Positions 13,454 through 32,977 of a stretch of DNA of 39,688 nucleotides are shown in pieces. This DNA comes from Cytophagaceae bacterium (GTDB lineage: Bacteria > Bacteroidota > Bacteroidia > Cytophagales > Flexibacteraceae), in assembly GCA_027485575.1 (NCBI GenBank), contig JAIXQU010000182.1, positions 1 through 39,688 of the forward strand, read 5' to 3'. The notes below the pieces were generated by a model that made no database searches, was not told where the DNA came from, and was given only the letters and a program-made list of their open reading frames with translations. The position numbers and the translations under genes were made by a program. How positions within the stretch are numbered: position 1 is the stretch's first letter; the number at the start of each line of letters is the position of its first letter.

Positions 13454-13456
13454 GAT

Positions 13457-13502: not shown

Positions 13503-13548
13503 CAGTCCGGGAGTCATTAACTGCAGAGCCCAAGGAGCAAACTCCTAA

Positions 13549-14784: not shown

Positions 14785-14788
14785 ACAA

Positions 14789-15751
14789 TTAAATAAAAAA
14801 CATTAACAAAAGCAATAGAAGAATAACTACAATTATTAGAATCACCGATATTAAACTATTATCACCTCGTTCTTCAGTTATTTTCGGTTCATTGATGATA
14901 GTTTGTAATACCGTTTGCTCTGCTTCAACAACTTTAATTTGCTTTGATTTTATGGTTTTGGATTCAGACAGCTTGATGTTTTGTATTTGTAAAAATCGAT
15001 CCTTCAAATCTTTCTGTGTTGCCTTCCTGATAAGGTCATCCCAGTTGCTATTTGTTTCAGGCAATGGATCATTTACAATTTTGGCTTGAATCTGAAAGGT
15101 AGATAAGGTCGTAGAATTGTAGGGTTTCAAGCCTGTAACCATCTGCCAGAGCACAACACCCAAGCTATAAATATCACTTTGTGTGGTAACTGCTTTTGTA
15201 GATACTATCTGCTCCGGACTCATATACATGGGCGTACCCATCTGCAATCCAGTACCTGTCTGGGTGTATTCGGCTGAGGATGCATCCTGCGACTTGGCTA
15301 TGCCAAAATCCAGGAGCTTAATATTACCCCGGCCATCCAGCATAAAATTGGAGGGTTTGATGTCACGGTGTATCAATCCCTTTTCATGCACATAGCCCAC
15401 GGCATCTAGCATCTGCCCGATAAGATGTTTGATTTCATCATCCGGTAATTTTCCTTTTTCTTCCAGGTAATCCCGAAGGGTGCGCCCTTCGATGTGCTCC
15501 ATCACAAAGGCAGCCGATTCATTCTCCTCAATCAAATCCGTTACCCGCACGATGTTGGGGTGGTTCATTCCCGCCAGGCTTCTTGCTTCTGCCAGAAAGC
15601 GTTTCCGGATATTGTCGGTGTGGAAATACTCCTTGTTCAACACCTTGATGGCGACTTTATGCCCAAGGCTTTTGTGCTCTGCCAGATACACTTTGGCCAT
15701 GCCGCCCTGGCCGAGTAGGAAAGCAACCTGATATTGCGATGTATTCAACAT
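14789..15751 (-). CDS. Membrane-anchored Ser/Thr protein kinase
   Basis: 320 residues, Hanks-type kinase. Visible elements are the glycine loop GQGGMAKV (14-21), catalytic Lys K36, HRDIKPSN with D130, DFG at 148-150 and the activation segment ending GTPMYMSPEQ (172-181). The chain ends in one long hydrophobic helix (about 297-320), so the kinase faces the cytoplasm with almost no outside part. It is closely similar to the kinase domain encoded just upstream, which points to a tandem duplication. It lies between that kinase and the caspase gene. Likely substrates are the FHA and low-complexity proteins of the same operon (inference). Confidence 0.95.
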   Translation of the reverse strand: MLNTSQYQVAFLLGQGGMAKVYLAEHKSLGHKVAIKVLNKEYFHTDNIRKRFLAEARSLAGMNHPNIVRVTDLIEENESAAFVMEHIEGRTLRDYLEEKGKLPDDEIKHLIGQMLDAVGYVHEKGLIHRDIKPSNFMLDGRGNIKLLDFGIAKSQDASSAEYTQTGTGLQMGTPMYMSPEQIVSTKAVTTQSDIYSLGVVLWQMVTGLKPYNSTTLSTFQIQAKIVNDPLPETNSNWDDLIRKATQKDLKDRFLQIQNIKLSESKTIKSKQIKVVEAEQTVLQTIINEPKITEERGDNSLISVILIIVVILLLLLLMFFI

Positions 15752-15798
15752 TGAATCAGTGGTTTTATTTAATGAGCAGAAGCACTGGGCTCAGTATA

Positions 15799-18225: not shown

Positions 18226-18228
18226 TTA

Positions 18229-19428
18229 TTAAATTTCTACTGATTTTAGGTTTTTTTTGATGGTATCCACCTTAGACTTGCTGCCCGGAAGCAAGCGGTT
18301 TTCCTGCCGCTTTGTTGGAATCGGCGTTTTGTGTTTACGGGTCGAATCTTTCAGAAATCTTTTTTCTTTTACAATATTCCTTGAACCACCTTTAATAGAA
18401 TCAATATTCGGTTTGAGCGGTGGACCTAATGAGGTTCTTCCTGGCGATGGCCTTTGAAATGAATTTGAAGATTTTGATTTAATATCTGATGGTTTTTTCT
18501 GTCTTGCCACTTTTGAATTGGCCGAATTGTCCTGCTTTTTGAATAACGGATTAAAATAATAACCGGCAGCAAGAAACAAGGCCAAACCAGTTATAAGCAG
18601 AAGCCACCTGCTGGTTCTCAGCTCCTTTTTTCCATTGTCCTTTAAACCACCATTTCCAGTAATTTGACTGCGTCCTGGTCCAGGAAGATCTTTTCGCCAA
18701 GGACCCTTTGGAACATCTGCAAAGACAACCTCGTAAAGTATGGCAGTGGAATTATCTCTCGAGTTCAGGTCGCATTCCTGTTCCATTCTGGCCATTATCT
18801 CTGCGGCAGAAAAACCCTGTGCAAACAGAATTTCCAGATCCTCGTTGCTCCAGCTTTCCAGAACTCCGTCCGAACATTGAAGCACAAAGTCTCCTTTGCA
18901 AATATCGGTTAACTGCACAATCTCTACCTGCGTAGGTTTATCCTCGCCCTGGATGGCTCTGGTTATGATGTTAGATTTTGGGTGACCAGCTGCTTCTTCT
19001 TTCGTAATTATTCCAGCTTTCAGAGCATCATTTACCCAGCTGTGGTCTTCAGTCTGAAATAGAATTTTTCCATTACGGAACTGATAAATCCGGCTGTCGC
19101 CTACCCAGCCAATCAAAATATTATTTAGTCTTACCTGCGAAAAAGTAAGGGTGGTTGCCATCCCATAGGTTTCAGGATGTTGCTGTATATGAGCGGACAT
19201 CCTTGCTTCCGCCGCTTTCAGTACGGAATCAGCCCCGGAATCCGGATCGTCTTGGAAGGCATTTAAAAAGTGTCTTGCGACAATTGCCGAAGCCACTTCT
19301 CCTTTCTGGTTACCACCAACGCCATCGCAAACCACGAAATGACTGCTGGTTTCAAAACAGGCAAAATCTTCGTTGTTTTCCCGTTTGCCTAAAACCGAAA
19401 ACTGAATCGCAGGACCTAATTTTATCAT
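18229..19428 (-). CDS. Membrane-anchored PP2C-type Ser/Thr protein phosphatase
   Basis: 399 residues. The PP2C motifs are intact: GKRENNEDF with D21, VCDGVGG with D35-G36, IGWVGDSR, LQCSDGV with D187, and RDNSTAI with D225. It removes phosphate from Ser/Thr with two metal ions, opposing the two kinases encoded directly downstream. Unlike the common soluble form, it has a transmembrane helix at about 268-290 (WLLLITGLALFLAAGYYF) and then ~100 residues very rich in Lys, Arg, Ser and Pro. That tail would be outside the inner membrane and might bind peptidoglycan, LPS or an acidic partner. The ATG at 19428 gives the usual short lead-in to the first motif. Confidence 0.93.
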   Translation of the reverse strand: MIKLGPAIQFSVLGKRENNEDFACFETSSHFVVCDGVGGNQKGEVASAIVARHFLNAFQDDPDSGADSVLKAAEARMSAHIQQHPETYGMATTLTFSQVRLNNILIGWVGDSRIYQFRNGKILFQTEDHSWVNDALKAGIITKEEAAGHPKSNIITRAIQGEDKPTQVEIVQLTDICKGDFVLQCSDGVLESWSNEDLEILFAQGFSAAEIMARMEQECDLNSRDNSTAILYEVVFADVPKGPWRKDLPGPGRSQITGNGGLKDNGKKELRTSRWLLLITGLALFLAAGYYFNPLFKKQDNSANSKVARQKKPSDIKSKSSNSFQRPSPGRTSLGPPLKPNIDSIKGGSRNIVKEKRFLKDSTRKHKTPIPTKRQENRLLPGSKSKVDTIKKNLKSVEI

Positions 19429-19437
19429 AATCAGGTT

Positions 19438-20331
19438 TTAGATGAACTGATTGGTTACAAAATCATCATTCCCCTGGAATACATCCTGCTGGTAATTATC
19501 TGGCTGTTCCCAATCCTGAAACTGCACATTTTCCATTTGCTGTTCATAATCTGCAAAATCCTCAGCAGAAGCGGATTCATCTTCCGGAATCTCAGAAATT
19601 TCCGCTTCAGGTATTTCTTCCGAAACAACTTCAGAGCCTGACGCATCGGTTTCTTCTGCAATCACAGGCTCATCCTGCTCCGAAGACCAGTCAATGGGCT
19701 CAAAGCTGTCATCCATTCCTGTAATTTCGCCACTCTCATTCTGATAATCTGACTGCTGGGCATAATTGGCATTCCCCCCCAGAAGAAAATCAGGCAATTG
19801 TTCCGCAGTTCCAGTTACTTCCTGAGTTACTCCTGTAACATCAGTAGCCTGCATGCCCCACTGATCGATGTATCCATCGTGATTCACATCCACAAAAACC
19901 ACTTGCACGGTATTGCCATTACCAGCATCCATTGCAAATCCCATGTAGGCCGGTTGCTGTTCGGCACTTGCTGTTTCCACTACCGGTACTGATGCATCTT
20001 TAGATGTCATTACGGCATCTGAAACATGGTTTTGGTTATCGGCAGCATCTGTGACAGAAACAGAGACTCGGGAATTTAATGGTGCCGGTGCTGGATTATC
20101 AGAAGAAGCCATAACGGGGTTAGACGGTTCGGGCTGGACGCCCTTATCTTGACCTTCTTTGTTCAGGTAATTTTGCGCCGCGGCTCCAAGACCCGCTCCA
20201 GCAACTCCAGCACCTGCGGCCACTGCACCTGAAATTCCGCTGCTTTCGCCATCTTTTTTCTCAGTTGTGGCATTCAGGCCTTCTATTTTGGTGCTGTCCT
20301 GATTAATGTGTTTTTTTTCGTTGTTTTCCAT
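19438..20331 (-). CDS. Acidic low-complexity protein with one calcium-loop-like motif, unknown function
   Basis: 297 residues, no family recognised. It opens with a charged stretch and a glycine/alanine-rich segment (AVAAGAGVAGAGLGAAA, about 36-52). Then comes a Ser/Thr/Asp-rich disordered region, a short ordered block at about 150-185 (GNTVQVVFVDVNHDGYIDQWGM), and a long strongly acidic tail. DVNHDGYIDQWG looks like an EF-hand or dockerin calcium loop. There is no signal peptide. Its place between two FHA proteins and the PP2C/kinases makes it a candidate phosphorylated scaffold read by the FHA domains. That is inference from position and composition only. Confidence 0.75.
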   Translation of the reverse strand: MENNEKKHINQDSTKIEGLNATTEKKDGESSGISGAVAAGAGVAGAGLGAAAQNYLNKEGQDKGVQPEPSNPVMASSDNPAPAPLNSRVSVSVTDAADNQNHVSDAVMTSKDASVPVVETASAEQQPAYMGFAMDAGNGNTVQVVFVDVNHDGYIDQWGMQATDVTGVTQEVTGTAEQLPDFLLGGNANYAQQSDYQNESGEITGMDDSFEPIDWSSEQDEPVIAEETDASGSEVVSEEIPEAEISEIPEDESASAEDFADYEQQMENVQFQDWEQPDNYQQDVFQGNDDFVTNQFI

Positions 20332-20343
20332 AAGTTTCAGCAG

Positions 20344-20790
20344 TTAAGAATTGATTTGAATTGAAATCTTTGTAAGACCTACGATGAAAAAATCTCCGGG
20401 AATAAAAGGATAACGGATACCTTCTTTCAACCTCTGCTTGTTTTTGTTATAAGTTCCGTTTAAACTACCTAGGTCTTCAATGAAGAAAAAAACCTTCTCT
20501 TCCCGAAATTCCATAAACACCTTGGCATGAATCCGGCTCACATATTCATCTGAAATGAGGATATGCCCATTTACATTTGGTTTTTCTGTTTTCCGGCCAA
20601 TTACCTGAACACCATTTTTTAAACCAACCTGGGCAAACTTTCCTTCTTGCTGAATTGAAAGAACAGGACCAAGGGTAAGCACATTTCTTGTACTGCACTT
20701 CGGACAGATAACTTCCAGCTTAGGACTTTTGAATTTAGCCGGGTCAATTTTATACGGTGCCTTGCATTTCCCGCATTTAAAATATCTCAT
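20344..20790 (-). CDS. Zinc-ribbon plus FHA domain protein
   Basis: 148 residues. An N-terminal zinc ribbon (C6-x2-C9 and C29-x2-C32) is followed by an FHA domain (about 58-145) with the binding-site pattern ISDEYVSRIHAKV and EDLGSLNGTYNKN. FHA domains bind phosphothreonine, so this is a likely reader of the kinases in the same operon. It overlaps the preceding double-FHA gene by 4 bases. The zinc-ribbon/FHA pairing recurs in the neighbour with the order reversed, which suggests shared descent or a joint complex. It is cytoplasmic: no membrane segment or signal peptide. Confidence 0.9.
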   Translation of the reverse strand: MRYFKCGKCKAPYKIDPAKFKSPKLEVICPKCSTRNVLTLGPVLSIQQEGKFAQVGLKNGVQVIGRKTEKPNVNGHILISDEYVSRIHAKVFMEFREEKVFFFIEDLGSLNGTYNKNKQRLKEGIRYPFIPGDFFIVGLTKISIQINS

Positions 20791-21860
20791 GTTCTGAATT
20801 TTATTTTACACTTGTTACATTCTCTTATAGTAATCCATGCTTTTTTCTGGAAAGACTCTTTGCACCTGGGGCAGGAATAGGCAATAAGAAACATATCCTC
20901 AAAACTGAGGTCGTTCTGAATTTTGTTGGACTCATGCTGCCCGAGATATCTGCCGATAATTCCCCCTCCAGCCATCAGCAAGAGGCCAAGAGGACCGCCA
21001 GCAGCGGTAACAACTGCAGCACCCACCCCTAAAGCAGATCCGCCAAGACCAAAGCTAATGGCGATGTTTCTGGCTTTCATCATTTTTGTCTGGTACTCTT
21101 TATAGATTTCCTCCAAGGAATTAAAGGAGGCGAGCTCAAAATTATTTGCCATCCTCGGACCAGAAATTTCATCCCTCAGGTTTGGCCTTTGTGCTGGTCT
21201 TGGTGGTATTTTTAGGTTCGGAAATACTCTAGTCAGAGAAAGTTGATAGTCGGCGCCCAAACAAACCTGACTTGCAGCCGACAGAATTTGCCTTTTGTTA
21301 GGAAGCAGTCTCTCACCGTCTACAAAGGTTCCATTGGTCGAGCCAAGGTCCTCGATTTCAACCAGGCTTTCATTTATCATTCTGATCTGGCAGTGTTTTC
21401 GGGAAACCTTAGGATTGTCAACCTTGATCAGACATTCAGGAGCCCTGCCAATAAACACAAACTTGGTCTGGTCAATAGAAGAAATCTCTCCCAAAGAGGT
21501 CTTTTCAGCATCCAGAATTAACACTTTCCCCATCTGGTTGAGAATCCGGGTTGTGTCATGCCTTATTTCCAGAGTTGAGGATAAAATCCGCGTTGAATCT
21601 TCCATTTCCGGAGGAAAAACCTCCATCCAGTTGAAGGAGTAGTCGGAAGACAGCGTTACCTTATTTTCGGTGTTCAGCTGCATCCAGGTTTCTGGTGTTA
21701 GTTTTTTGCCATCGATATAAGTGCCATTCTTCGATCCAAGGTCTTTAATGTAAACACATTTTGTCTCTTTTTTCATTTCGAGGTGTCGCCTGGAAACCCG
21801 TCTCTGTGGGTCAAGAATTACAAAATCGCAGGCAGGGTCGCGTCCTATAATTTTTCTCAT
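20787..21860 (-). CDS. Double-FHA protein with glycine-rich hydrophobic segment and zinc ribbon
   Basis: 357 residues. FHA 1 covers about 1-70 (IIGRDPACDFVI, VSRRHL, LGSKNGTYIDG) and FHA 2 about 115-215 (FIGRAPECLIKV, VSRKHC, LGSTNGTFVDG). Both keep the Arg, Ser-Arg-His and Asn residues needed for phosphothreonine binding. A hydrophobic, glycine-rich stretch (about 268-308, with GVGAAVVTAAGGPLGLLLMAGGG) could insert in membrane as a glycine-zipper hairpin. A zinc ribbon (CPRC...CNKC) closes the chain. Its gene follows the XRE regulator by 2 bases. It likely tethers phosphorylated partners at the membrane. Confidence 0.92.
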   Translation of the reverse strand: MRKIIGRDPACDFVILDPQRRVSRRHLEMKKETKCVYIKDLGSKNGTYIDGKKLTPETWMQLNTENKVTLSSDYSFNWMEVFPPEMEDSTRILSSTLEIRHDTTRILNQMGKVLILDAEKTSLGEISSIDQTKFVFIGRAPECLIKVDNPKVSRKHCQIRMINESLVEIEDLGSTNGTFVDGERLLPNKRQILSAASQVCLGADYQLSLTRVFPNLKIPPRPAQRPNLRDEISGPRMANNFELASFNSLEEIYKEYQTKMMKARNIAISFGLGGSALGVGAAVVTAAGGPLGLLLMAGGGIIGRYLGQHESNKIQNDLSFEDMFLIAYSCPRCKESFQKKAWITIRECNKCKIKFRT

Positions 21861-21862
21861 TG

Positions 21863-22162
21863 CTAAATCTGGACTTCGGCGGCTCCTTCTGCCAGTTTTT
21901 TCTTCACAATGGCCAGCACTTCCCTTGCATAGGGTTCATTCACCAGTACATCGAGTACTCTGTCAGAGAGCCAGATTATTTCAAGTTCTTTCTGGGAGAC
22001 CTCAAAAAGTTCTGCCAGTTTGCTGATATAGCTCCTGCTTACCGGTTTTTCTTCGCTTTCCATTTTACTTATGTAGGCAGAATCAACATCAAGCCGGGCT
22101 GCAACCATTCTCTGGACGATTCCTCTGCTGGTTCTTAATTTTTTTATCTCATTACCTATCAT
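21863..22162 (-). CDS. XRE-family helix-turn-helix regulator
   Basis: 99 residues. The HTH of the Cro/C1 type spans about 5-60, with the pattern QRMVAARLDVDSAYISKMESEEKPVS cut into its helices (recognition helix near AYISKMES). The C-terminal ~40 residues are helical and may dimerise. It is the first gene of the minus-strand phospho-signalling operon and faces the plus-strand operon across 311 bases, so it may control both. Two near-identical direct repeats lie right in front of its start codon. Confidence 0.9.
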   Translation of the reverse strand: MIGNEIKKLRTSRGIVQRMVAARLDVDSAYISKMESEEKPVSRSYISKLAELFEVSQKELEIIWLSDRVLDVLVNEPYAREVLAIVKKKLAEGAAEVQI

Positions 22163-22473
22163 AAAGTCCTTTTTGGCACTTGTCCTTTTTTGGGCAAATT
22201 TGATAAGAAAAATCGAAGTATGAAAATTTCTATAAGTAGTGTTTTATTAATATATTTCCCCAAAAAGAGTGGATTCTTATGTAAGATACTGAAAAAAAGA
22301 GATTGATAATGGTAAATATTTTTTTTACGATAAAGTAAATAAAATATCTGATCGTTGAATATTTATGAATTTTGAGTTTGTGTTTGGTTTATAAAAAAAA
22401 TGGGAATTATTTGCGGCTCTTAAAAAGTAGTTAAAATGATTGTATACAAATTATTTTGTTCGACTAAGTAATT
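22163..22473. promoter_or_regulatory. Shared divergent control region of the two large operons
   Basis: 311 AT-rich bases with no open frame. It must contain the start signals of the minus-strand signalling operon and of the plus-strand envelope operon. I could not place a full TTG-N-TAnnTTTG promoter with confidence; CAAATTTG (minus strand, near 22195) and TTATTTTG (plus, near 22452) each miss the -7 pattern by one base. Confidence 0.5.
22166..22193 (-). promoter_or_regulatory. Two direct repeats at the regulator start, possible operator or ribosome-binding element
   Basis: On the minus strand CCAAAAAAGGAC (22182-22193) is followed by CCAAAAAGGAC (22166-22176), 16 bases start to start. The nearer copy contains AAGGA a few bases before the ATG at 22160-22162 and so would serve as a Shine-Dalgarno, which is rare in this window. 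The duplication could also be a binding site for the XRE protein. This is read only from the sequence pattern. Confidence 0.4.
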
Positions 22474-25400
22474 ATGCTAGTAGGTAGTCAATTGAAATCA
22501 ATTCTCGCTATTTTTCTGGTTTCCTTATTTGGATTTTCTGACCTCTTCGGCCAGCGGGCCTCCCTCCCGGCTTCCGTTCAAATATGTCAGTCAGCGAATA
22601 AATCAATTTTTCCTTCCTTGAGGAAGCCCGTGTATAAATATCAATGGCAGGATAGCATCTCCGGAGGACAATGGAACAATCTGGTCATTGGCCCAAACAT
22701 TCAGGGCGCAATAAAAGACTCCCTAAAAATATTAAATTGCCCAATCGCATTCGATGGTAGGAAAGTAAGATGTCAAATTGATTCCAATGGAAATGGAGTA
22801 TTTGACTACAATACCAATGCATCCAGGCTGATTGTGAATCCGCTTGTTGGTGCTCCGGGCAGCATTACAGGACCAAGCAATATTTGTTCAGGCGCTACTG
22901 GAAACATCTTTACAATAGCTCAGGTTTCACAGGCAACACTATATTCTTGGTCAATTTCACCTGCTGCCACAATTCTGTCAGGCCAAGGATCAAATTCCAT
23001 CAGCGTTAATTTTCCAACACCTGGTAACTACAGTATTTCTGTCAGCGCATCGAATTCCTGCGACTCCAAAACATCAAGTCCAATCATCGTAAATTATCTG
23101 CCAACGGTTACAGCCCCGGTTATTGGCCCATCACAGACGCCTATTTGTTATAATTCAATTCCTTCACCTTTAAATTTAACAACTCTACCAACGGGTGGTG
23201 GAGGTAATTATTCTTACCAGTGGGAATCATCCGCTGATGCATCAGTCTGGACTCCAATTGCTGGTGGCACTCTTAGCAACTATTCGCCACCGGCTCAGAC
23301 TTCATCCCGTTACTATCGGCTTAAAGTAACCTCCCAAATTGGTTGTGGCCCTGTATTTTCAAACCAGATTTTTATTCAAACCTATCCTCAGGTAGTTTCC
23401 GGAACCATCCAAAACAATCAGTCCATTTGCTACAATGCTGTTCCGCAGATTTTAAACTTTTTTACCCCTACCACTGGAGGCAACGGGTCTTTTACCTATC
23501 AATGGCAAAGTTCAGCGAACAACCTGACCTGGTCAGACATCCCGTCGGCCAATTCCGTTTCTTATCAGCCAACGGCATTAACTGATACCACTTGGATTAG
23601 GGTGAAATCAATAACACAGTGCGGCTCCGTCAACTCCTCTCCTATTAAAATCACTGTATTTCCGGATTTTATTTCCGGAACCATTGGCACAGCACAATCC
23701 ATTTGCCACAATACATCGCCTAATCAGCTGGCATTTATTCAAAACCCAATTGGTGGCCTTGGTGGTGGAGGTTATTCATATCAATGGGAATCTACTGCCA
23801 GCTCAAATCTAACAGGTTTTACAGCTATAGCAGGAGCATCAAATGCAACCTATTCATCGACACCCCTTACTGATACCACATGGTTTAGGATTAAAGTACA
23901 GACCCCAACCTGCGGATTTAAAACAACCCAGCCTGTGAAAATTACTGTCCATCCGGCATTGGTAGGCGGGTCAGTTCAAAGCAGTCAAACCATTTGCAAT
24001 GGCACAAGTCCTGGCCAGCTTATTTTGTCTTCTGTGCCTGCCGGAGGCAACGGTGCATTTCAATTCCAATGGCAGTCTTCAATAAATGGGATTACTTTCT
24101 CGATTATTAATGGTGCCACGGTTCCTTCATATACTCCATTAAACCTGACCGATACCACCTGGTTTCTGCTTAAAGCCACAAATACTTGCGGTACCGTCAC
24201 TTACCAAAGCGCAAAAATTACGGTCCGGCCTCCTATGAATGCAGGAGCGCTACAAACTCCAAACCCGGTTTGTTACAATTCATCACCTGGCAGCATTTCA
24301 TTTACAATTCAGGCATCTGGAAGCGCTGCACCCTATGATTACCAATGGCAGCAGTCTGCAAATGGTGTTACATCATGGACAGACATTGCAGGTGCAACAT
24401 TGAACTCCTATTCCCCGGGTCCGCTTACTGATACACTTTGGTTGAGAACCAAGGTCAAATCGAATTCCTGTAATCAATCAGACACAACCCTTCCTATAAA
24501 AATTATTGTTTATGCACCACTTCAGAGCGGATCAATTCAGCCGGTACCAGCTATTTGTTACAACACAATCCCGGGTATTCTTGGTTTAGCGCAAGCAAGT
24601 TCAGGAGGAAATCCTTCAAACTATACATACCAGTGGCAAAGCTCTTCTGACAATTTAAGTTTTACGAACATCCCTGGAGCTACTGCTTTTACATATCAGC
24701 CTGTGGCTCTCTTGGATACAACATATTACCGTGTTTCCATTACTTCCGGTTCTTGCGGAAACGTACAAACTCCTGCAATAAAAGTAATTGTTTTTCCACA
24801 GTTTGCTGCAGGCACTATTCAGGGCAGCCAGAAAATTTGCTATAACTCTATACCATCTTTATTCACAATCAATCAGAATCCTTCAGGCGCCAATGGTTCA
24901 TTCGGTTACCAATGGCAAAGTTCTCCAGATAGCCTTAACTGGCTTAATATTCCAGGAGCCACTACTGTATCGTACCAGTCTACGGCACTTTCTGATACCT
25001 TATTTTTTAGGTTGAAAATAACCTCACCGGAATGCGGCTCAGTTTTTACCAAAACAATAAAAGTTTCTGTTTTTCAACCACTTTCTTCCGGCAGCATTCA
25101 AGGAAATCAATCTATTTGTAATAACGCTACTCCTTCTCTTTTTAATTTCAATCTTCAGCCCTCTGGTGCTGGTGGCCTTTATTCCTACGTGTGGCAGAAG
25201 TCGGTTGACCTACAGATCTGGGCTAGTATTCCCCAATCTGATGCCATTCAATATGCTTCTTCCTCTTTAATTGATACCACATGGTTCAGGGTTTTGGTTC
25301 AATCTAAGGCGGGATGTGATACTCTTCCAACGAATACCATTAAGGTAATTGTATTTCCTTCGTTTCAAGTTGGATCAATTGGCAATCCGGATTCGGTCTG

Positions 25401-26439
25401 CAAAGGAGATTCAGTCCTGATTTCCTCCTTAAACCTTCCAAAAGGTGGACCAGGAACCTTTACCTACGGCTGGGAGAAAAGCCCTAATCAAAATACATGG
25501 AGCTCCATTTCCGGAGCATCTGGACCTTTCCATCAATCCAGTAAACTCTCCGATACTACCTGGTTCAGAGTTCAGTACACAGCAGGCAATGGCTGTGGTT
25601 CAGGCTTCTCCAACCAAGTGAAAATCGTGGTTGATACATTACCGACCTTACCAGTTTTGGAGGGCCCAACTAATATTTGTAACCTGGCCCAGAATGTGAA
25701 CTACTCATTTCCATACAAGAAAACAGGCGACTTCTCCTTTGACTGGAGTTTAACCGCAGGTGAAATTTCCGGCCGGTCGGATACCACCTCTACCCAGATC
25801 AATTGGGATTCGCTGCCTGGAATTGCCAAAATCAAGATTCAGGTTGAAAACCGAAGGACTTCCTGTAAAAGCAGCAAAGAGTTCAACATTGAAAAATCGC
25901 CCTATCCTGCACCCGGCCCAACCGATATCATCAGGAAAATAAATTCCAATATCCTGGTTTGTGCTGACAGTACTCCAAATCTTTCTTACGAATGGGGCTT
26001 CACAAAAAAATCTACCGGTGAGAAAACAGTCCTGAGCAACTGGAATAAAAGGTACTGCCAGCTTCCTCATGATTTTGACAAGACCACGTACGAGTATTGG
26101 GTTCGTAGTTATTTTCCCGATGCAGGTCCTTATTGCGAATACATTTCTATCTATCAGGGAGCGATTGGCAGGCGAGCATTGGAGATTGTTCAAGGCTATC
26201 CAAACCCGGCAAAAGGAGAGTACTTCCTCCAGCTTCCGGATAATGTTCCGAATGCAAAAATTATCATCAGCGATTTGCAAGGGCGAATTTTCTGGCAGAA
26301 TTTGATTACAAATTATGCAGAGCCCATTCTGATTCCATTGCCAATGGTGAATGGAATCTTATTTCTGAATTGCACTTATTTAGATCTGGAAGGGAGTCTG
26401 ATTCAGTCAAACCTTAAAATATTATCAGGCCATGAATAG
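22474..26439 (+). CDS. Giant Ig-like-repeat surface protein, T9SS type-A cargo
   Basis: 1321 residues. A signal peptide (1-26, ending LFG) leads into a unique N-terminal region and a PKD-like domain (about 128-210). Nine tandem Ig-like repeats of ~93 residues follow (about 213-1055), each with the frame SGSIQ..QSICYN..P, GG.GSYTYQWQSS, I.GA, Y.P..LTDTTWFR.K and CG......IKI.VFP. One more PKD-like domain and a type-A T9SS sorting domain (about 1236-1321, YPNPAKGEYFLQLP) close the chain. Each repeat carries two Cys that may form a disulfide. The repeats are diverged at DNA level. It probably forms a long surface fibre or adhesin. It is the first gene of the plus-strand operon and overlaps the next by 8 bases. 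Confidence 0.9.
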   Translation: MLVGSQLKSILAIFLVSLFGFSDLFGQRASLPASVQICQSANKSIFPSLRKPVYKYQWQDSISGGQWNNLVIGPNIQGAIKDSLKILNCPIAFDGRKVRCQIDSNGNGVFDYNTNASRLIVNPLVGAPGSITGPSNICSGATGNIFTIAQVSQATLYSWSISPAATILSGQGSNSISVNFPTPGNYSISVSASNSCDSKTSSPIIVNYLPTVTAPVIGPSQTPICYNSIPSPLNLTTLPTGGGGNYSYQWESSADASVWTPIAGGTLSNYSPPAQTSSRYYRLKVTSQIGCGPVFSNQIFIQTYPQVVSGTIQNNQSICYNAVPQILNFFTPTTGGNGSFTYQWQSSANNLTWSDIPSANSVSYQPTALTDTTWIRVKSITQCGSVNSSPIKITVFPDFISGTIGTAQSICHNTSPNQLAFIQNPIGGLGGGGYSYQWESTASSNLTGFTAIAGASNATYSSTPLTDTTWFRIKVQTPTCGFKTTQPVKITVHPALVGGSVQSSQTICNGTSPGQLILSSVPAGGNGAFQFQWQSSINGITFSIINGATVPSYTPLNLTDTTWFLLKATNTCGTVTYQSAKITVRPPMNAGALQTPNPVCYNSSPGSISFTIQASGSAAPYDYQWQQSANGVTSWTDIAGATLNSYSPGPLTDTLWLRTKVKSNSCNQSDTTLPIKIIVYAPLQSGSIQPVPAICYNTIPGILGLAQASSGGNPSNYTYQWQSSSDNLSFTNIPGATAFTYQPVALLDTTYYRVSITSGSCGNVQTPAIKVIVFPQFAAGTIQGSQKICYNSIPSLFTINQNPSGANGSFGYQWQSSPDSLNWLNIPGATTVSYQSTALSDTLFFRLKITSPECGSVFTKTIKVSVFQPLSSGSIQGNQSICNNATPSLFNFNLQPSGAGGLYSYVWQKSVDLQIWASIPQSDAIQYASSSLIDTTWFRVLVQSKAGCDTLPTNTIKVIVFPSFQVGSIGNPDSVCKGDSVLISSLNLPKGGPGTFTYGWEKSPNQNTWSSISGASGPFHQSSKLSDTTWFRVQYTAGNGCGSGFSNQVKIVVDTLPTLPVLEGPTNICNLAQNVNYSFPYKKTGDFSFDWSLTAGEISGRSDTTSTQINWDSLPGIAKIKIQVENRRTSCKSSKEFNIEKSPYPAPGPTDIIRKINSNILVCADSTPNLSYEWGFTKKSTGEKTVLSNWNKRYCQLPHDFDKTTYEYWVRSYFPDAGPYCEYISIYQGAIGRRALEIVQGYPNPAKGEYFLQLPDNVPNAKIIISDLQGRIFWQNLITNYAEPILIPLPMVNGILFLNCTYLDLEGSLIQSNLKILSGHE

Positions 26440-28048
26440 GCACCGATATTTTACAGTAAGTCTGCTCCTAAGCCTGGTTCTGTGGCGGAATTCGTTTGCA
26501 CAGGATTACACGATGGACCAGTTCCGGCGAATCAATCTGGCTGCAGTGGATTTGATAGAACGCTATGAAACCAATGCCAAATTCCGAAAACCAGAACATA
26601 CCCGAGACTTTCTTGAGCTTTTTTCGGATACAGCCAACATCATCCACAACGACATCATTCCGGATAATCGCCTTGACACCACAATCCGGGTAGGAGAATA
26701 TGTACGCCGGATCAAGCAATACTATAACGGTGTAGGAGTTTCAATGGAAATCCTGAGTCTGGAAATGCCACAGAGAAATCCCAAAAAGGATGGTTTTCTG
26801 ATTGTGGTTCACACATCCAAAATGATTTCCGGTTACACAAAAAACAACAGGGCTTTCTCCGATACTATTCCCCAGGATTTCTACATCGGGTTTCAGAAAA
26901 ATGGACAGAAATTCGGTGATTTTGCCATCGAAACCATTGAATGCAAAAAGTCTCTTGGACGGTACTTCTATCTGAAGGTTTTTGATGATCATAATCGACC
27001 ACTGGAAAATTATCCGGTGTTCATTAATGGGAAGTTTCATTTGGCCCCCACCGATACTCTGGGGAAACCAATTTGGATAAAAGATCTTAAGGCACCACTT
27101 TACATCGTTCCGGATACGGTAAATTCGGATGACGAATCCATGTTTCCACGCTTTAAGAACTTCTGGGAAGCGAAGGCAAGATTAGGAGGCAAAAAAGGCC
27201 TTTCCACAAAAGACGACTTCAATTTCATGGTAAAAAGTCCGGATCTTGTGTTCGGAATTCGCTTAAACCCTGTATCTATTTCAGGTACTCACTTTACTTT
27301 CAGCAAATCGAGTTTGCCGAATTCGAAATTTGAATCTTTGGCTTTGAAAGGAAATTTCAACCGCCATTTTTCGGCTTTCCTGGGAAAAATAATTGCCCGA
27401 AAGCCTGCTTACACAATGTATATAAATACCGGTTTGGGATTTTCCAGTATGGGTTTTAATGCTAGTCTGGAGAATTACGCCAGCCAGGTTGAAAGCACAG
27501 ACCCGGATGGGGCCAGATATTTCAGAAAAGTGCAGCTCGAGTCGGTTTCAGAAGACTTTACCCTCTCATTTTTAAGCTTACCTGTATACCTGAGTGCTGA
27601 AAGACGAATAAGCCAGAAACATAAGTTGGATGTGTTTGCTGATGCCGGAATGATGCTTTGCCTAACAACAGGCCAATCTTATGAAAGCAAAGCCAGTGGG
27701 GTGCGGTATGCGGGTTATTATCCACAATTGTTTAACATAGAAATGGATGACAACCGGATTTACGATTTTGGCTCTTTCAGCGAAGCTAAGGGAAAGAAAG
27801 AAACTCATTTGAAAACAATAGGCCTTGACGCTTTTGTAAGGGCTGGATTCTCTTTGAGGCTTAAACCAAGGATGTATGCATTTTTGAACATTGCGTACCA
27901 GCAATCGCTTACTGACCTTAAGAAAACAGACCTTTCAGTTCCTGCCTTATCTCCGAATTTGGCGAGCCTGTATTCGGTTACCGATCTTATGCAGAACCTG
28001 AAGCGTAACTTTACCCAGGTTGAGACAGGAATTAAATTTAAAATCTGA
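26432..28048 (+). CDS. Outer-membrane barrel-like protein with long periplasmic N-terminal region
   Basis: 538 residues with a signal peptide (1-23, ending NSFAQ). The first ~270 residues form a soluble region of unknown fold. It begins with DQFRRINLAAVDLIERYETN, and a later segment (YFYLKVFDDHNRPLENYPVFING) resembles a carboxypeptidase-like Ig fold. The last ~270 residues show alternating strands with aromatic ends (TMYINTGLGFSSMGF, LDVFADAGMMLCLTTGQ, KPRMYAFLNIAYQQSL) and end in a short strand TQVETGIKFKI, as in outer-membrane barrels. It may hold or export the adhesin encoded just before it, with which it overlaps by 8 bases. No OmpA peptidoglycan domain was seen. Confidence 0.75.
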   Translation: MNRHRYFTVSLLLSLVLWRNSFAQDYTMDQFRRINLAAVDLIERYETNAKFRKPEHTRDFLELFSDTANIIHNDIIPDNRLDTTIRVGEYVRRIKQYYNGVGVSMEILSLEMPQRNPKKDGFLIVVHTSKMISGYTKNNRAFSDTIPQDFYIGFQKNGQKFGDFAIETIECKKSLGRYFYLKVFDDHNRPLENYPVFINGKFHLAPTDTLGKPIWIKDLKAPLYIVPDTVNSDDESMFPRFKNFWEAKARLGGKKGLSTKDDFNFMVKSPDLVFGIRLNPVSISGTHFTFSKSSLPNSKFESLALKGNFNRHFSAFLGKIIARKPAYTMYINTGLGFSSMGFNASLENYASQVESTDPDGARYFRKVQLESVSEDFTLSFLSLPVYLSAERRISQKHKLDVFADAGMMLCLTTGQSYESKASGVRYAGYYPQLFNIEMDDNRIYDFGSFSEAKGKKETHLKTIGLDAFVRAGFSLRLKPRMYAFLNIAYQQSLTDLKKTDLSVPALSPNLASLYSVTDLMQNLKRNFTQVETGIKFKI

Positions 28049-28050
28049 CA

Positions 28051-29115
28051 ATGGAAGAAAAAAAACATCTCAAGAATTTTAAGTGCCAGAACCCCGAATG
28101 CAGGCATGAGTTCGTGGCCGATGAATTTGAGGCACTAGAATGCCCGGTTTGCCACACAGAGGGAATTGGACCGAGTAGGCCGCCATTAACAAATTATATT
28201 CGCATTGCTATAATATTAATTGGCCTTGTTTTAAGCATCTACTATTTGAAAGAATGTAGCAATGGTGATCATAAGATAACGTTTAGATATGATACAATTA
28301 ATTGTGAACTAACGGCTTATGTTGATGATTTGGAGGACCAAAAATATTATTATGTTTTAGGAAACAATCAGGTAATCCAATTTAAAGAGTGCACTTTTAA
28401 AATAAAAAGTATCGGCAACCATACCATCCATATTTTTTCAGAAGAAAACTTCGATCCTAATTCACAAAAAAAACCTATTGCCAGCGGCACCTATAATGTA
28501 CCTAAATTGTGTGAAGGAAACCAGGACAAAATATCAAGTGGTGTAGCAGCCGTCCAGACCCAACTTCAATTTCTGAGAATAAAACCTGGTAAGGTGCTGG
28601 TAATTGTTTTTACCGGTGGCAAAGGTACTGCCTTTGAGTTTTCTATTAATGGTCTGAAAGGGCCTTTTCAGAAAGTTCCTGATTTTCCGAATGCTCCATG
28701 CAAAGAATATAAACCAGGGGAGTTGGTAGTTAAATGTATATCAGATGGTCAAATTGCTCACAATCCATCACCTCTGAGATTTGATGACTGCAAACAGGTT
28801 GCTTCATCAAATCCTCCACCACCAGCAGGCCCAAATCCATCTATTAAATCCCTATTTGATGGTCTAATTAGTGGTTCATCCAAGATTGGAGATTCCTATG
28901 AGATTAATCCTGGAAACATGTCTGACCCTATTCAGATATACCATTCAAGCAATTCAACACCGGAAACTATTCCTTTTTACGACTATATGGTCCGGCTTAC
29001 TGCTGATAACAATATTAGGATCAATAAAGTAACATCTGCTTTCAAATGGGGTCCTGATTCAAAAGGCAAGCAAGTTCCAGTACCAATAAATATTAAAGTT
29101 TATGAGGATAATTAA
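28051..29115 (+). CDS. Zinc-ribbon, single-helix membrane protein of unknown function
   Basis: 354 residues. An N-terminal zinc ribbon (C12-x4-C17 and C31-x2-C34) stands before one transmembrane helix (about 49-66, YIRIAIILIGLVLSIYYLK). About 285 residues follow that would lie in the periplasm. They have a beta-rich look (ITFRYDTINCELTAYVDDL, VLVIVFTGGKGTAFEFSINGL) and a Pro-rich linker near 250-260. Cytoplasmic zinc ribbon plus outside domain suggests a trans-membrane link. I do not recognise the family. It starts 2 bases after the barrel gene and overlaps the next gene by 14 bases. Confidence 0.75.
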   Translation: MEEKKHLKNFKCQNPECRHEFVADEFEALECPVCHTEGIGPSRPPLTNYIRIAIILIGLVLSIYYLKECSNGDHKITFRYDTINCELTAYVDDLEDQKYYYVLGNNQVIQFKECTFKIKSIGNHTIHIFSEENFDPNSQKKPIASGTYNVPKLCEGNQDKISSGVAAVQTQLQFLRIKPGKVLVIVFTGGKGTAFEFSINGLKGPFQKVPDFPNAPCKEYKPGELVVKCISDGQIAHNPSPLRFDDCKQVASSNPPPPAGPNPSIKSLFDGLISGSSKIGDSYEINPGNMSDPIQIYHSSNSTPETIPFYDYMVRLTADNNIRINKVTSAFKWGPDSKGKQVPVPINIKVYEDN

Positions 29116-29710
29116 GTTATTTATCCTTGCCTCTGGACTTACCCTGCTCGCTGTTTTTTCAGTCCGGGCACAGGACGATTCTACATACCACTTTGTTTAT
29201 GTAGACATTAGCTCCATGCCTGGAGGTGCAAAGCTGGTACGCCGTCTGGACTCTCTTCAGAGAGCATTTGTTCAGGAAAATGCACGGTATACATTTTTCC
29301 TTAGCAACCTGAGTAATCCGGAGATTTACAGTGGCAAAGGTGACTTTGAATCCTGGCTCGGTACCGTAAGCTCACTAGAGCCTCCTCCCACAAATTTTAA
29401 TTCGGATTTAAATTTGATTTTGAATCAGCTTTCTAAAAATGAATTTGCTGAGATCAGCCAATCTGAAATAAAAGCGCAGTTCAAATCAGTCAATTTTCAT
29501 TTTTTTATTTCTGCGAGAGATTTCTCTACACAGAACTCAAGGTACTACTTGATAGACAAATTGCTAATGGCGATCAATACAAACAGGATGGATAAGAAGC
29601 TGCAGCTCAATCTGTTTTTTCCTATTAAGGAGACAATCAATATCAAAAAAGAAGAAGTTATATCGTTTTATAAGCGAAGAAATGTTAAGACTCAGTTTCA
29701 GTTTTTATAA
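29102..29710 (+). CDS. Small exported protein, unknown function
   Basis: 202 residues with a signal peptide (1-23, ending SVRAQ). The mature part starts YHFVYVDISSMPGGAKLVRRLDSLQRAFVQE, followed by alternating strands and helices (YTFFLSNLS, VNFHFFISARDF, KLQLNLFFP). This pattern recalls a Rossmann-like or degenerate vWA fold, but the metal-binding DxSxS is missing. The start codon lies inside the end of the previous gene (14-base overlap), and the next gene begins 29 bases before its stop, which implies tight coupling and probably a common periplasmic complex. Confidence 0.7.
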   Translation: MRIIKLFILASGLTLLAVFSVRAQDDSTYHFVYVDISSMPGGAKLVRRLDSLQRAFVQENARYTFFLSNLSNPEIYSGKGDFESWLGTVSSLEPPPTNFNSDLNLILNQLSKNEFAEISQSEIKAQFKSVNFHFFISARDFSTQNSRYYLIDKLLMAINTNRMDKKLQLNLFFPIKETINIKKEEVISFYKRRNVKTQFQFL

Positions 29711-32096
29711 TCGTCTACCCTCGGCGGTCCTTGTGTTTCTACTAGTGTTTTGTGCGCTCCCTGCACTTTGTCAGCGGCTGCCTTCCAGAGCCACCATTTC
29801 CAAGCCCTGGTGGCGGGACGAAAACCGGCCTAGTTCCTTTTATGAAAAAAAGGTGAGGGACGGTGACTTCGGTCAAAACGACAAAACAGACACCTGGTGG
29901 ATAGTTGCCAGTGATCGTGGAGAAAATACATGCTACTCTTCCCCGAGCTCTGGGTCCAAAAAAGGAGAAATGGATTTGATGGAAACTGCGGCCATTATTG
30001 AAATTGAAAATGGCTTTGCCCACCTCATTCAGCAAAACGGATCGGGAAGAATCAGTGCTGGCTGGCCAATGATACCGAGCAATGCAATTGACAAGGGTTG
30101 GATACCAATCAGTAATATCCTTTTGTTTCCTAAGGCGATCACGAATGAAAACCTGATTTATGAAAAAGCAATGGTCCTCACATCCATTGATGATAAAACA
30201 AGCAGGGATAACCTTGAGTATAACAACAGCGTTAATTTCAAAAAAGGGCCAGATCTCAGAACGCCTACGGATAAGCTTTCCAAAACCTTTGAAATTTATT
30301 ATATATTCAAAAAAGTAGGCAATTCAGTATTATTGGGCAGGTCAGACCGTTTAACCCAAAGTGACCAGGATAAAGCAAATGTGCTTGGATGGGTTTCTAA
30401 CTCATCGGTAACTTTCTGGAATCAGCGAAATTGTCTCGAGCCCAATTGGAAACCAGCAGCTGTACAGGAATTTAAAGGAAAAGGAATAGATCCGGTAATT
30501 TTTGATAACGAAGCAAGCGATGTTGCGCACCAGTTTGCTGGTTCCGGTAGAATAAGTGATCTCAGAAGGGTAGTAAAGAAAAGTCCTTTCACTCAGTCAA
30601 GACAGGATGGCTACATAATGCGCAATCCGGTCATTGAGCAAATGGATGCCAATACCTTTAAAGTTGGAACCATAGGTGCCGTAACCGAAGGTGAAAAGTC
30701 TGAAGCAGACATCGCACGCATCAAGCGTAAAATTGCGGACATGAATGACAAGATGTCGAATGTCAACATCATTTTCGTGATTGATGGCACTCAGAGTATG
30801 GGCAGTTTTTACCAACCGGTTGCCAATGCACTCAGCTCTTCCATTCAAAAGCTTCGAAATTCAGGAAACGGAAATGCATTCAAGTTCGGTGCTGTGGTTT
30901 ACAGGGACTATCCGGATGGTGGAAAAGTTGCTGAAGTGAAAAGGTTAACAGCGGATTACTCTGAGGTAACCAGTTTTCTCAATCAGGTTAAACTAAGTGG
31001 CGACAAGGACTATCACGAAGCCATGTTTCAGGGGATTGAAAAAGGCTTAAAGGACTGTGGCATGAAAAAGGGTCAAAGTAATTTTATCTTTCTAATCGGC
31101 GATGCAGGAAACCATTTACAAGACAAAAAAGGCATTACTGAGGCCTCTCTGATAAAGGAAATTGCAGAGTATGAAAGTAACCTCGTTGCCTTTCAGGTTA
31201 ATAACGGGTATGACAGGGCATTTGATGACTTTATTGACCAGACACAGACCATCATCAAAGGGGCCGCCCAGGAAATTGCCAAAGCCTATGGCGGTAATCC
31301 AAAGCTTTGCATATTCAAATCAGACGGAAACAATAAACATGAACTGGACAAACTGGAAGGGGAATTAGTCGACATCCCCTACATGGTAGGCAGCTTTATT
31401 TTTCCGACCAAAGGTTCCAGCATGCCAATCAGAACCCTTGAAAAGGAAATCGAACAAAAAATCATTGAGTTTGATAAAAGAGTCGTTCAGGTAAAAAACA
31501 TTCTGGAGAGCAGTACCAACATAGCCGGATCTGGGTTTACCCCCAACGTGAAGTTTATTCTAAGAAAATCAGGTTTATCGGATAAGGATATAGACCGACT
31601 TATAAAATTTGGGACTCAGCTTAAAATTGAAGGAATAATCTCCACGAAAGCCGGGGGCTGTGACAGTGCGTTGTTTTTGCCTGTTGTTTTTCTCGCCCGA
31701 AGCGAGCTCAACAGAATCGTAAACACACTCGAAAAAATTCATATACCGTCTTCATCTGACGCTGAACGCCGAAATAACTTTAGAGAAGCCATGATTGGTT
31801 TGATTCAGGGACAGCTAGGTGCTTTGAGTGCAGACGAAATATTGTCCAAAACAATGGACGAGATTTACCAGATTCTCATGGGCATTCCATTCAAAAGTTC
31901 TGCATTGAAGAATATTCCACTTAAAGGAATTATTGATCCGAATGTGGTTTCAGCCAGGCAGTTTGCAGAATACATGGACGCCATTGATGACAAATTGAAA
32001 GAGTTGCAAAAAATAAGCAGTGGTTCTACTTATCAATACTCATTCAAGGCCAACGATCAGGACTTTTTCTGGATACCACTCGAGGATATACCTTAG
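29682..32096 (+). CDS. Exported von Willebrand factor A protein, TssR-like architecture
   Basis: 804 residues with a signal peptide (1-31, ending ALCQ; not a good lipobox). An N-terminal beta-rich region at about 60-260 contains two SH3-like stretches (GWIPISNILLF and LGWVSNSSVTFW). The vWA domain spans about 362-560 with the MIDAS site D368-x-T370-x-S372 in FVIDGTQSM and a later FLIGDAGNH. A helical C-terminus follows. From memory, barrel plus vWA in an exported Bacteroidota protein resembles TssR of type VI secretion subtype iii, but no other T6SS part is in the window. It is placed just before the ABC transporter genes. The likely role is a periplasmic metal-dependent scaffold. Confidence 0.82.
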   Translation: MLRLSFSFYNRLPSAVLVFLLVFCALPALCQRLPSRATISKPWWRDENRPSSFYEKKVRDGDFGQNDKTDTWWIVASDRGENTCYSSPSSGSKKGEMDLMETAAIIEIENGFAHLIQQNGSGRISAGWPMIPSNAIDKGWIPISNILLFPKAITNENLIYEKAMVLTSIDDKTSRDNLEYNNSVNFKKGPDLRTPTDKLSKTFEIYYIFKKVGNSVLLGRSDRLTQSDQDKANVLGWVSNSSVTFWNQRNCLEPNWKPAAVQEFKGKGIDPVIFDNEASDVAHQFAGSGRISDLRRVVKKSPFTQSRQDGYIMRNPVIEQMDANTFKVGTIGAVTEGEKSEADIARIKRKIADMNDKMSNVNIIFVIDGTQSMGSFYQPVANALSSSIQKLRNSGNGNAFKFGAVVYRDYPDGGKVAEVKRLTADYSEVTSFLNQVKLSGDKDYHEAMFQGIEKGLKDCGMKKGQSNFIFLIGDAGNHLQDKKGITEASLIKEIAEYESNLVAFQVNNGYDRAFDDFIDQTQTIIKGAAQEIAKAYGGNPKLCIFKSDGNNKHELDKLEGELVDIPYMVGSFIFPTKGSSMPIRTLEKEIEQKIIEFDKRVVQVKNILESSTNIAGSGFTPNVKFILRKSGLSDKDIDRLIKFGTQLKIEGIISTKAGGCDSALFLPVVFLARSELNRIVNTLEKIHIPSSSDAERRNNFREAMIGLIQGQLGALSADEILSKTMDEIYQILMGIPFKSSALKNIPLKGIIDPNVVSARQFAEYMDAIDDKLKELQKISSGSTYQYSFKANDQDFFWIPLEDIP

Positions 32097-32098
32097 TT

Positions 32099-32977
32099 AT
32101 GACAAATCCACTCTTTAAAATTCGAGACTTAAGCTGCCGGTATTCGGAGGCAGGGAACACCGTATTGGAGATTCCCAAACTGGATATTCCTGCAGGCAAG
32201 GTGGTTTTCATTGTTGGGGTTTCAGGTGTTGGCAAGTCGACCATACTTGAAACTTTAGGCATGATGAACAATACACTTGCCGATAATACCAATCTGGTTT
32301 TTGAGTATCAATCACCCAAACAAAAAAATCCAAGGGCTCTGCGCAGTCTTTGGGAAAGGAAGGATGATGAGGCCATATCTAATTTCCGGAGCAGAGAGTT
32401 CAGCTTTATATTTCAGGATACGAACCTGATGAAGAATTTTTCGGCCTGGGAGAATATTTATTTACCAGCATTGCTTCGCGGTCGCACATTGGGGCAGGCC
32501 CGGGATAAGGCAAAAAATATAATTAAAGCAATTTTCAAGGAAGACCTGGACGAATCAAAAATGATTTACCACCTGTCTGGTGGGCAGCGCCAGCGACTAT
32601 CATTTGCAAGAGCAATGGTATCGGAGTTCTCAGTATTGTTTTGTGATGAGCCAACTGGAAATCTCGACCGTTTCAATTCTGTACGCTTGTTTGAAGTTTT
32701 GAAAAACCACATACTTGAAGAGCAAAAATCAGCCATTGTGGTTTCACACGATCTGGAACTCTCTGCGAAATTTGCCGACATCCTGATCCATATTCGCAAA
32801 ATAAAAAAGACCGGTGGTGGGGCAGAGGAGTCGGATTCTATCTCAGGTTTGATTGATGGCGAGAGTGTCTACTTCAATAATGGTCAGCACTGGGATGTTG
32901 GTGGCCAAAAGTTAAATGCCTCCGAATTTCAGGAATATCTTGTTAAACTCCTTAACAAGGATAACAATCTAAACTAA
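32099..32977 (+). CDS. ABC transporter ATP-binding protein (LolD/MacB-like)
   Basis: 292 residues. All ATPase motifs are intact: Walker A GVSGVGKS (40-47), Q-loop FIFQD, signature LSGGQRQR (159-166), Walker B VLFCDEP with D183-E184, and H-loop H217. It looks like the MacB/LolD/FtsE class, whose members pair with FtsX-like permeases and drive mechanical change across the envelope instead of import. Compared with LolD it has a longer stretch between Walker A and Q-loop (about 70-100) and a C-terminal extension of ~60 residues. It is followed after 5 bases by its permease. Confidence 0.95.
   Translation: MTNPLFKIRDLSCRYSEAGNTVLEIPKLDIPAGKVVFIVGVSGVGKSTILETLGMMNNTLADNTNLVFEYQSPKQKNPRALRSLWERKDDEAISNFRSREFSFIFQDTNLMKNFSAWENIYLPALLRGRTLGQARDKAKNIIKAIFKEDLDESKMIYHLSGGQRQRLSFARAMVSEFSVLFCDEPTGNLDRFNSVRLFEVLKNHILEEQKSAIVVSHDLELSAKFADILIHIRKIKKTGGGAEESDSISGLIDGESVYFNNGQHWDVGGQKLNASEFQEYLVKLLNKDNNLN

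Follow-up and report, generated by a model that had tools for sequence, protein, structure and literature searches.

Two kinds of described systems are among the closest to the locus considered here. First, the pairs SprB-SprF of Flavobacterium johnsoniae and PG1035-PorP combine type-B sorting signals of the type IX secretion system (T9SS) with PorP-like outer-membrane barrels (PMC9143113, PMC12618676), and according to the accessible text of a 2025 paper, type-A T9SS cargo uses one shuttle, PorV, and type-B adhesins have private PorP/SprF partners (PMC12618676). Second, Makarova and Koonin (2010) described membrane-remodelling systems of FtsZl1 (Tubulin_2) and vWA proteins, whose function was left open and some of whose operons encode OmpA-type outer-membrane proteins (PMC2875224); Tubulin_2 proteins are regarded in a 2023 study as outliers of their family, being divergent (PMC9871819). 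Here we analyze a stretch of 39,688 nucleotides from a Cytophagaceae bacterium (contig JAIXQU010000182.1 of assembly GCA_027485575.1, forward strand), hereafter the window, in which a T9SS adhesin gene and an outer-membrane barrel gene stand at the head of an apparent operon that also encodes a Tubulin_2 protein. We regard the pairing of adhesin and barrel as the most valuable result; its link to the tubulin machine is plausible, and the functional account is half supported. In the open-licence literature, as far as its accessible text extends, we found no description of an OMP_b-brl_2 barrel as the private partner of a type-A adhesin, nor of a T9SS adhesin with a Tubulin_2 machine. The pair consists of the following features, the 8-base overlap of the initial annotation being borne out by the two open reading frames (ORFs) 22474-26439 and 26432-28048.

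22474-26439, + strand: adhesin of 1321 aa with a T9SS sorting domain of type A, PKD_6/Ig-like domains, nine Ig-like repeats and, by eye, a signal peptide
23098-25638, + strand: nine Ig-like repeats of 92-98 aa each, residues 209-1055 (repeat alignment and profile)
26197-26373, + strand: match to the T9SS type-A sorting domain, residues 1242-1300 (TIGR04183)
26432-26439, + strand: overlap of adhesin stop and barrel start, 8 bases (ORF coordinates)
26432-28048, + strand: barrel protein of the outer membrane (538 aa), encoded once in the genome, with a signal peptide by eye
26501-27256, + strand: extra region at the N terminus of the barrel protein (about residues 24-275), presumably periplasmic and lacking in the 19 relatives
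27272-28045, + strand: OMP_b-brl_2-type barrel half, residues 281-538 (profile of relatives)

The evidence that carries the pairing comes from relatives of the barrel. Neither Pfam nor NCBIfam gives a match to the window protein at E 0.1, PorP/SprF included, and only about residues 281-538 can be identified as a barrel, by way of relatives that Pfam assigns to OMP_b-brl_2; for that half, the outer-membrane barrel predicted downstream of the adhesin holds good. Searching the other 394 genomes of the phylum sample with a profile of the barrel half gave 18 further places, spread over 14 genomes. Seventeen of these are full-length and were counted, although they are not independent, 16 of the 17 coming from 13 genomes of one genus; a partial place in genome G595 was set aside. 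Sixteen of the 17 lie directly downstream of a T9SS gene on the same strand (gaps of 2-166 bases) and one lies directly upstream. Two further genomes, G024 and G040, gave weak matches to the full barrel protein, the match there being an OMP_b-brl_2-OmpA protein (E 4e-11) that starts 35 bases after an MBG-repeat T9SS protein. All 19 relatives adjoin a type-A T9SS gene, and 18 of the 19 follow it immediately, with gaps (2-166 bases in 16, 35 in two) measured from longest-ORF starts. TIGR04183 is passed by the T9SS partners of the 16, by those of G024 and G040 and by the window adhesin; the partner in swapped order scores 25.0 bits. In that swapped locus (L184:166-3931) the barrel comes first and the T9SS gene 19 bases later. 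The partial match in G595 (L200) lies just behind a protein with a T9SS C-terminal domain (CTD) and is possibly a decayed second pair.

The T9SS partners that were scanned (5 of 19) carry adhesin-type repeats or HYR domains, and the four scanned whole hold SprB, MBG_2 or HYR; five of the upstream T9SS genes (L187, L189, L190, L193, L195) end at a contig edge. All five barrel relatives scanned are OMP_b-brl_2 proteins, two of them with OmpA, and none matches PorP/SprF. The relatives are either barrel only (277-299 aa) or a barrel with a C-terminal extension (448-465 aa, with OmpA in the three tested). The window barrel is recovered at E 6.3e-16 by a profile of the 17 relatives (the window, G024 and G040 left out), at an identity of only about 15-20%.

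These barrels occur apart from the tubulin. PF13809 is sparse, with matches in 12 of 291 genomes of the order (6 over the cut-off) and 13 of 395 in the phylum (10 over the cut-off), the window's own genome included in both counts. The 14 other barrel genomes do not overlap with the 13 genomes positive for PF13809 in the same phylum sample, and G024 and G040 are likewise absent from the 12 PF13809-positive genomes of the order. The pair is thus found in 16 other genomes without a PF13809 match, 13 of them from one genus, and in four families counting that of the window. Because every relative found stands beside a type-A T9SS gene, in a genome where no tubulin gene was detected, the pair is, judging by gene neighborhoods, a separable recurrent module, one that was apparently recruited to the tubulin operon. 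A barrel subfamily with 19 of 19 relatives beside type-A T9SS genes, in four families, also suggests a second class of private partner.

The initial annotation had read the first gene as a nine-repeat T9SS adhesin, and ORF, repeats and type-A signal were all found. TIGR04183 scores 24.0 bits against the whole protein and 26.1 bits against its last 150 aa, for a cut-off of 23; against Pfam's sorting-domain model the adhesin scores 14.7, far under the cut-off of 27. No type-B sorting domain was found, TIGR04183 being the sole sorting-domain model to match at E 0.1 in the NCBIfam scan. Pfam matches include PKD_6 (3.5e-25) and Ig_7 (4.7e-12), together with SprB repeats below the cut-off. The repeat array is not chance, since profiles built from eight repeats find the ninth at E 1.6e-22 or better in every case (scaled to 1503 proteins). 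The repeats had been described as well kept at the protein level and diverged in DNA. The divergence is clear, with mean pairwise identities of 47.7% in DNA and 34.3% at third codon positions; "well kept" was too strong for a protein identity of 38.2% (range 27-50%). On these values the array looks old and only moderately kept at the protein level. Tandem Repeats Finder reported no repeats in the region, the nine-repeat profile had no match outside the adhesin among the 1503 proteins, and a search of the PDB with the adhesin gave no match. For the C-terminal 265 residues, other genomes of the family gave weak matches at most (best 1.6e-8). The same genome encodes a T9SS translocon, as indicated by a SprA_N match (PF14349, 1.5e-151), and at least 150 type-A (TIGR04183) matches.

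The barrel protein of the window differs from its relatives in about 250 residues ahead of the barrel, which are present in the window protein only and absent from all 19 relatives. The full protein was not found in the 4 other genomes of the genus or the 6 of the family that were searched, a plasmid search gave nothing, and the PDB yielded a single chance-level match (E 0.15). Its only cysteines are Cys171, in the extra region, and Cys410. Judged by eye from an alignment, the extra region is similar to exported NTF2-like proteins encoded in other tubulin operons. We rejected its identification as a homolog of the exported proteins of Bacteroides and Spirosoma tubulin operons, as pairwise BLAST, hhalign, HMMER and glocal comparisons all fell short of significance; the glocal score was matched by 9 of 500 shuffles and ranked 27 against 3208 slices. 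Structure models were of no help either: a single-sequence model of the whole barrel protein was useless (predicted local distance difference test, pLDDT, 32), and an AlphaFold2 model of the N-terminal region with its proposed NTF2-like relatives failed (pLDDT 41). The extra region is nevertheless our best candidate for the link to the machine, whose genes follow the pair and are listed here after the intergenic region that precedes it:

22163-22473, no strand: divergent intergenic region of 311 bases, candidate promoter region (spacing)
28051-29115, + strand: zinc-ribbon, single-transmembrane (by eye), periplasmic protein (Pfam scan)
29102-29710, + strand: exported protein, 202 aa, signal peptide by eye, no family match in Pfam/NCBIfam scans
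29682-32096, + strand: TssR-like vWA protein, with the four Pfam domains of TssR and, by eye, a signal peptide (TssR_VWA 8.5e-27)
32099-32977, + strand: LolD-type ABC ATPase (Pfam, NCBIfam, cluster profile)
32983-34518, + strand: FtsX/LolE-type permease (Pfam, cluster profile)
34505-35776, + strand: by eye a membrane protein, with a metal-site motif like that of vWA domains and nothing in Pfam at 0.1
35788-36183, + strand: small membrane protein (by eye), 131 aa
36187-38676, + strand: sole Tubulin_2 (FtsZl1) protein found in the genome, with a GGTGSG loop (PF13809, 5.1e-43)
38673-39482, + strand: trypsin-like protease (motifs TAAHV and GNSGG) with, by eye, a membrane segment at its N terminus

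The 11 genes from the adhesin to the trypsin-like protease are separated by gaps of -8, 2, -14, -29, 2, 5, -14, 11, 3 and -4 bases. On this spacing (-29 to +11) they appear to form an operon headed by the adhesin, in line with the earlier placement of the adhesin at the head of an operon with ABC and tubulin-like genes, and the 8-base overlap makes the barrel gene putatively translationally coupled to that of the adhesin. Twenty further type-A T9SS genes of this genome served as a control; they are among the best-scoring listed matches and not a random draw. Nineteen have a downstream gene in view (L144 does not), codirectional in 11 of the 19 and at its nearest 71 bases away. Because none of the 19 has a codirectional neighbor within 20 bases, the tight packing of the adhesin is unusual among the T9SS genes sampled. 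The script's gene calls are longest ORFs above a minimum length, so that small genes are missed. The motif TAnnTTTG is the Bacteroidota -7 promoter motif, and no such box was found in 22101-22480; the 311-base divergent gap yielded no recognized promoter motif. The metal-site motif of the 34505-35776 protein is of a pattern that we take to be that of vWA domains.

Several neighbors of the operon are recorded here for completeness. A divergent run on the - strand (12009-22162) encodes a helix-turn-helix protein, two FHA proteins, an acidic protein, PP2C, a kinase-Sel1 protein, a kinase, a MORN-caspase, AbiEi and AbiEii. By proximity only, its kinase, PP2C and FHA genes are possible regulators of the machine, and AbiEi/AbiEii possibly form a defence pair. 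A tRNA was also predicted at 887-962, anticodon undetermined, beside a tRNA-Arg.

A second association of a T9SS adhesin with a tubulin operon is found in G235, Larkinella arboricola (L055) and Spirosoma telluris (L056), which encode Ig_7-repeat proteins with Por_Secre_tail matches (1.3e-11, 1.1e-11 and 1.1e-10, respectively). In each, the adhesin gene lies between the gene for an exported protein and the TM259-tubulin genes, on the same strand and directly upstream of the latter. Since the tubulins of L055 and L056 are 84-88% identical to that of G235, the three are best counted as one lineage. The presence of an adhesin in this distant tubulin clade argues for a real link between adhesin and machine, and it represents either a second, distant case of a T9SS adhesin joining a tubulin operon or, with the window, descent from a common source that is no longer recognizable. 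The zinc-ribbon protein of the window (28051-29115) resembles the zinc-ribbon gene beside the Spirosoma-type tubulins (hidden Markov model (HMM) E 0.0014; hhalign probability 68.7%). Zinc-ribbon transmembrane proteins (by eye) of three kinds adjoin the tubulin gene in 45, 10 and 3 loci and appear as a shared unnamed part.

A scan of the genome collection provided 80 further tubulin loci, the best 80 of 169 confirmed. In five loci, from Methylococcaceae (L071), Verrucomicrobia (L076 and L079), Akkermansiaceae (L089) and Sandarakinorhabdus (L118), a TssR-like vWA protein, LolD and FtsX are encoded near the tubulin; the LolD ATPase of L079 was missed by the gene caller and recovered by tblastn (1.4e-25). 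The three genes share strand and run with the tubulin in L071, L089 and L118 and are divergent from it in L076 and L079. HMMs of the protein families clustered from the tubulin loci match the window proteins at 5.2e-15 (vWA), 4.8e-43 (ATPase), 0.002 (permease) and 3.1e-23 (tubulin). A cluster beside FtsX in L071 and L118 (c1) was considered as a kinase and rejected when Pfam gave FGE-sulfatase, and the kinase is left out of the claimed core; the FGE-sulfatase-domain protein lies directly behind FtsX in both loci (L071:9973-11679 and L118:17498-19261). Because these five loci hold tubulin, TssR-like vWA, LolD and FtsX without a detected pair, the adhesin and barrel lie outside the machine core and are probably an accessory to it. 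A close relative of the exact window operon was not found by tubulin searches of the phylum sample (n=395) and the family: the window tubulin matched 3 other genomes of the 395, at 1.8e-13 or weaker, and the family gave one weak match. A search of the genome collection with the TssR-like protein itself found no relatives.

Starting from the observed pairing and its recurrence, the packing of the operon and an extra region that none of the relatives found possesses, we propose that adhesin and barrel form a cognate surface module recruited to a Tubulin_2/TssR-like-vWA/LolDE machine, giving that machine a surface adhesive end, a proposal that we consider about evenly poised between right and wrong. 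The T9SS would export the adhesin, and the co-translated barrel would hold (or collect) it at the outer membrane, much as in SprB-SprF, with a type-A signal and an OMP_b-brl_2 barrel in their place. The extra N-terminal region, as the likeliest physical connection, would contact the periplasmic vWA and zinc-ribbon proteins of the machine, which, driven by GTP or ATP, would then act on the adhesin. The arrangement of genes thus suggests that the machine has a sticky surface end.

A number of observations weigh against this proposal. The five loci just described (L071, L076, L079, L089 and L118) have neither a sorting-domain motif nor a barrel-profile match, with the qualifications that all five belong to phyla other than Bacteroidota, that L071 is cut shortly upstream and that large proteins such as L076:18491-21451 lay outside the Pfam scan. 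Relatives carrying the rest of the operon with no adhesin or barrel gene had been named beforehand as evidence against the initial annotation; what was found goes part of the way, namely these five non-Bacteroidota loci with tubulin, vWA, LolD and FtsX and neither member of the pair detected. Within Bacteroidota, G669 combines tubulin, kinase and trypsin-like genes like those of the window, with no sorting-domain motif within about 11 kb. The CTD motif, a short pattern that misses variants, occurs in only 3 of 84 readable tubulin runs, all of one clade; the window is outside the 84, seven cases without a clean tubulin call (G500, G567, G669, L067, L072, L077, L094) were left out, and G138/L074 and G632/L066 are apparently the same contigs counted twice. 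A CTD profile, which is weak even on known cases, gave no clear additional case among the tubulin loci, its extra matches lying on the strand opposite the tubulin (L064, G464) or being a 140-aa fragment about 9 kb downstream of it (L099). Runella L075 and an uncultured Bacteroidetes (L064) have the TM259-tubulin with no adhesin directly upstream, on contigs that both end at the tubulin. The window adhesin is not detectably homologous to the Spirosoma-type adhesins (pairwise with G235 and against a profile of the three), and a barrel-profile search found no barrel of the window subfamily in the operons of G235, L055 and L056. The N-terminal region gives no significant match to NTF2-like or machine proteins (HMM E 7.5-28), the barrel relatives come mostly from one genus, and T9SS genes are so plentiful in this genome that an adhesin as a neighbor is not rare in itself. 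The adhesin, the barrel, their tight spacing and the company of machine genes all stand, whereas the pair as a fixed part of the machine does not, given the five loci without it and the genomes that have the pair and no detected tubulin. The contact sensing or adhesion-triggered action suggested in the initial annotation stays conjectural, as does its phospho-regulation.

The same observations lend some weight to the idea that the module works alone, in attachment or biofilm, and owes its place at the head of the operon to shared expression only. The pair occurs in 16 other genomes without a PF13809 match and the core machine is known without a detected pair; however, the gaps of adhesin and barrel are as tight as those within the machine, a different adhesin is found in another tubulin clade, and the extra N-terminal region is unique to the window barrel among the relatives found, so that we hold this explanation to be doubtful. 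A bolder form of the recruitment proposal, in which a GTP-driven tubulin relative would be joined mechanically, through the LolDE-type ABC transporter, the TssR-like vWA protein and a specialized barrel, to a surface T9SS adhesin, and in which that barrel would represent a private type-A partner class parallel to PorP/SprF for type B, here with an added periplasmic region, strikes us as unlikely in its entirety. It is quite improbable that the locus is a conflict or defence system, with the adhesin as a decoy or receptor on the cell surface whose triggering would set off the trypsin-like protease and the divergent operon's caspase. The trypsin-like gene of the operon, the caspase and AbiEi/AbiEii genes of the divergent run and a 2020 eLife study that, in its accessible text, counts certain tubulin and vWA genes among conflict systems (PMC7159879) fit that picture, but among the proteins scanned, namely the barrel, the TssR-like protein, the membrane vWA and the tubulin (the adhesin not among them), no PADLOC model matched at E 0.01, and AbiE may be an unrelated neighbor. 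That the barrel merely replaces PorV or PorP as the secretion shuttle of the adhesin, with no part in anchoring or in the machine, is likewise very unlikely, for although PorP/SprF-like shuttles are often encoded beside type-B substrates, in a pairing similar to that seen here, type-A signals use PorV (PMC12618676), the five barrels scanned match OMP_b-brl_2 and not PorP/SprF, and the OmpA domain in three relatives scanned suggests wall anchoring.

Returning to the recruited module, its partner machine compares most directly with the FtsZl1/vWA systems. Like them (PMC2875224), the window combines Tubulin_2, vWA, membrane proteins and kinases nearby, with PF13809 (5.1e-43) and TssR_VWA (8.5e-27) in one operon. 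Unlike them, it has a T9SS adhesin and cognate barrel, which are not described in the accessible text of that study, and the P-loop GTPase named there (PMC2875224) was not recognized in the window operon by Pfam. T9SS adhesins in two distant tubulin operons offer a concrete handle on the function of FtsZl1/Tubulin_2. A second comparison is with TssR, part of the membrane complex of the type VI secretion system iii (T6SSiii; PMC10781749). The 29682-32096 protein has all four TssR Pfam domains, as does the T6SSiii protein, whereas its neighbors are a tubulin and LolDE-type genes, and TssR of B. fragilis is a lipoprotein (PMC10781749) whereas the window protein has no clear lipobox by eye. No TssC (PF05943) match of a T6SSiii sheath was found in the genome, in a search aimed at TssC and not at TssB. 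A TssR-domain protein thus occurs in a tubulin operon of a genome without TssC, and TssR-like vWA proteins are encoded near the tubulin at five further loci; TssR and the tubulin/vWA systems may have a common origin.

For the coupling of a small outer-membrane barrel to a periplasmic machine, Bacteroidota offer PorG, a barrel tied to the moving GldK/PorK periplasmic track by way of cysteines in its C-terminal tail (PMC12635249). The window may present a coupling of the same kind, through a barrel whose tail, unlike that of PorG, has no cysteine. For the pair itself, SprB-SprF and PG1035-PorP are, by analogy, the closest working counterparts. As in SprB-SprF and other type-B-PorP pairs, a T9SS adhesin gene is followed immediately by a barrel gene, and for the SprF/PorP-like barrel there, a role in holding or collecting the adhesin has been demonstrated or proposed; unlike SprB-SprF, the window adhesin carries a type-A signal (TIGR04183) and its barrel, with OMP_b-brl_2-like relatives, has no PorP/SprF match.

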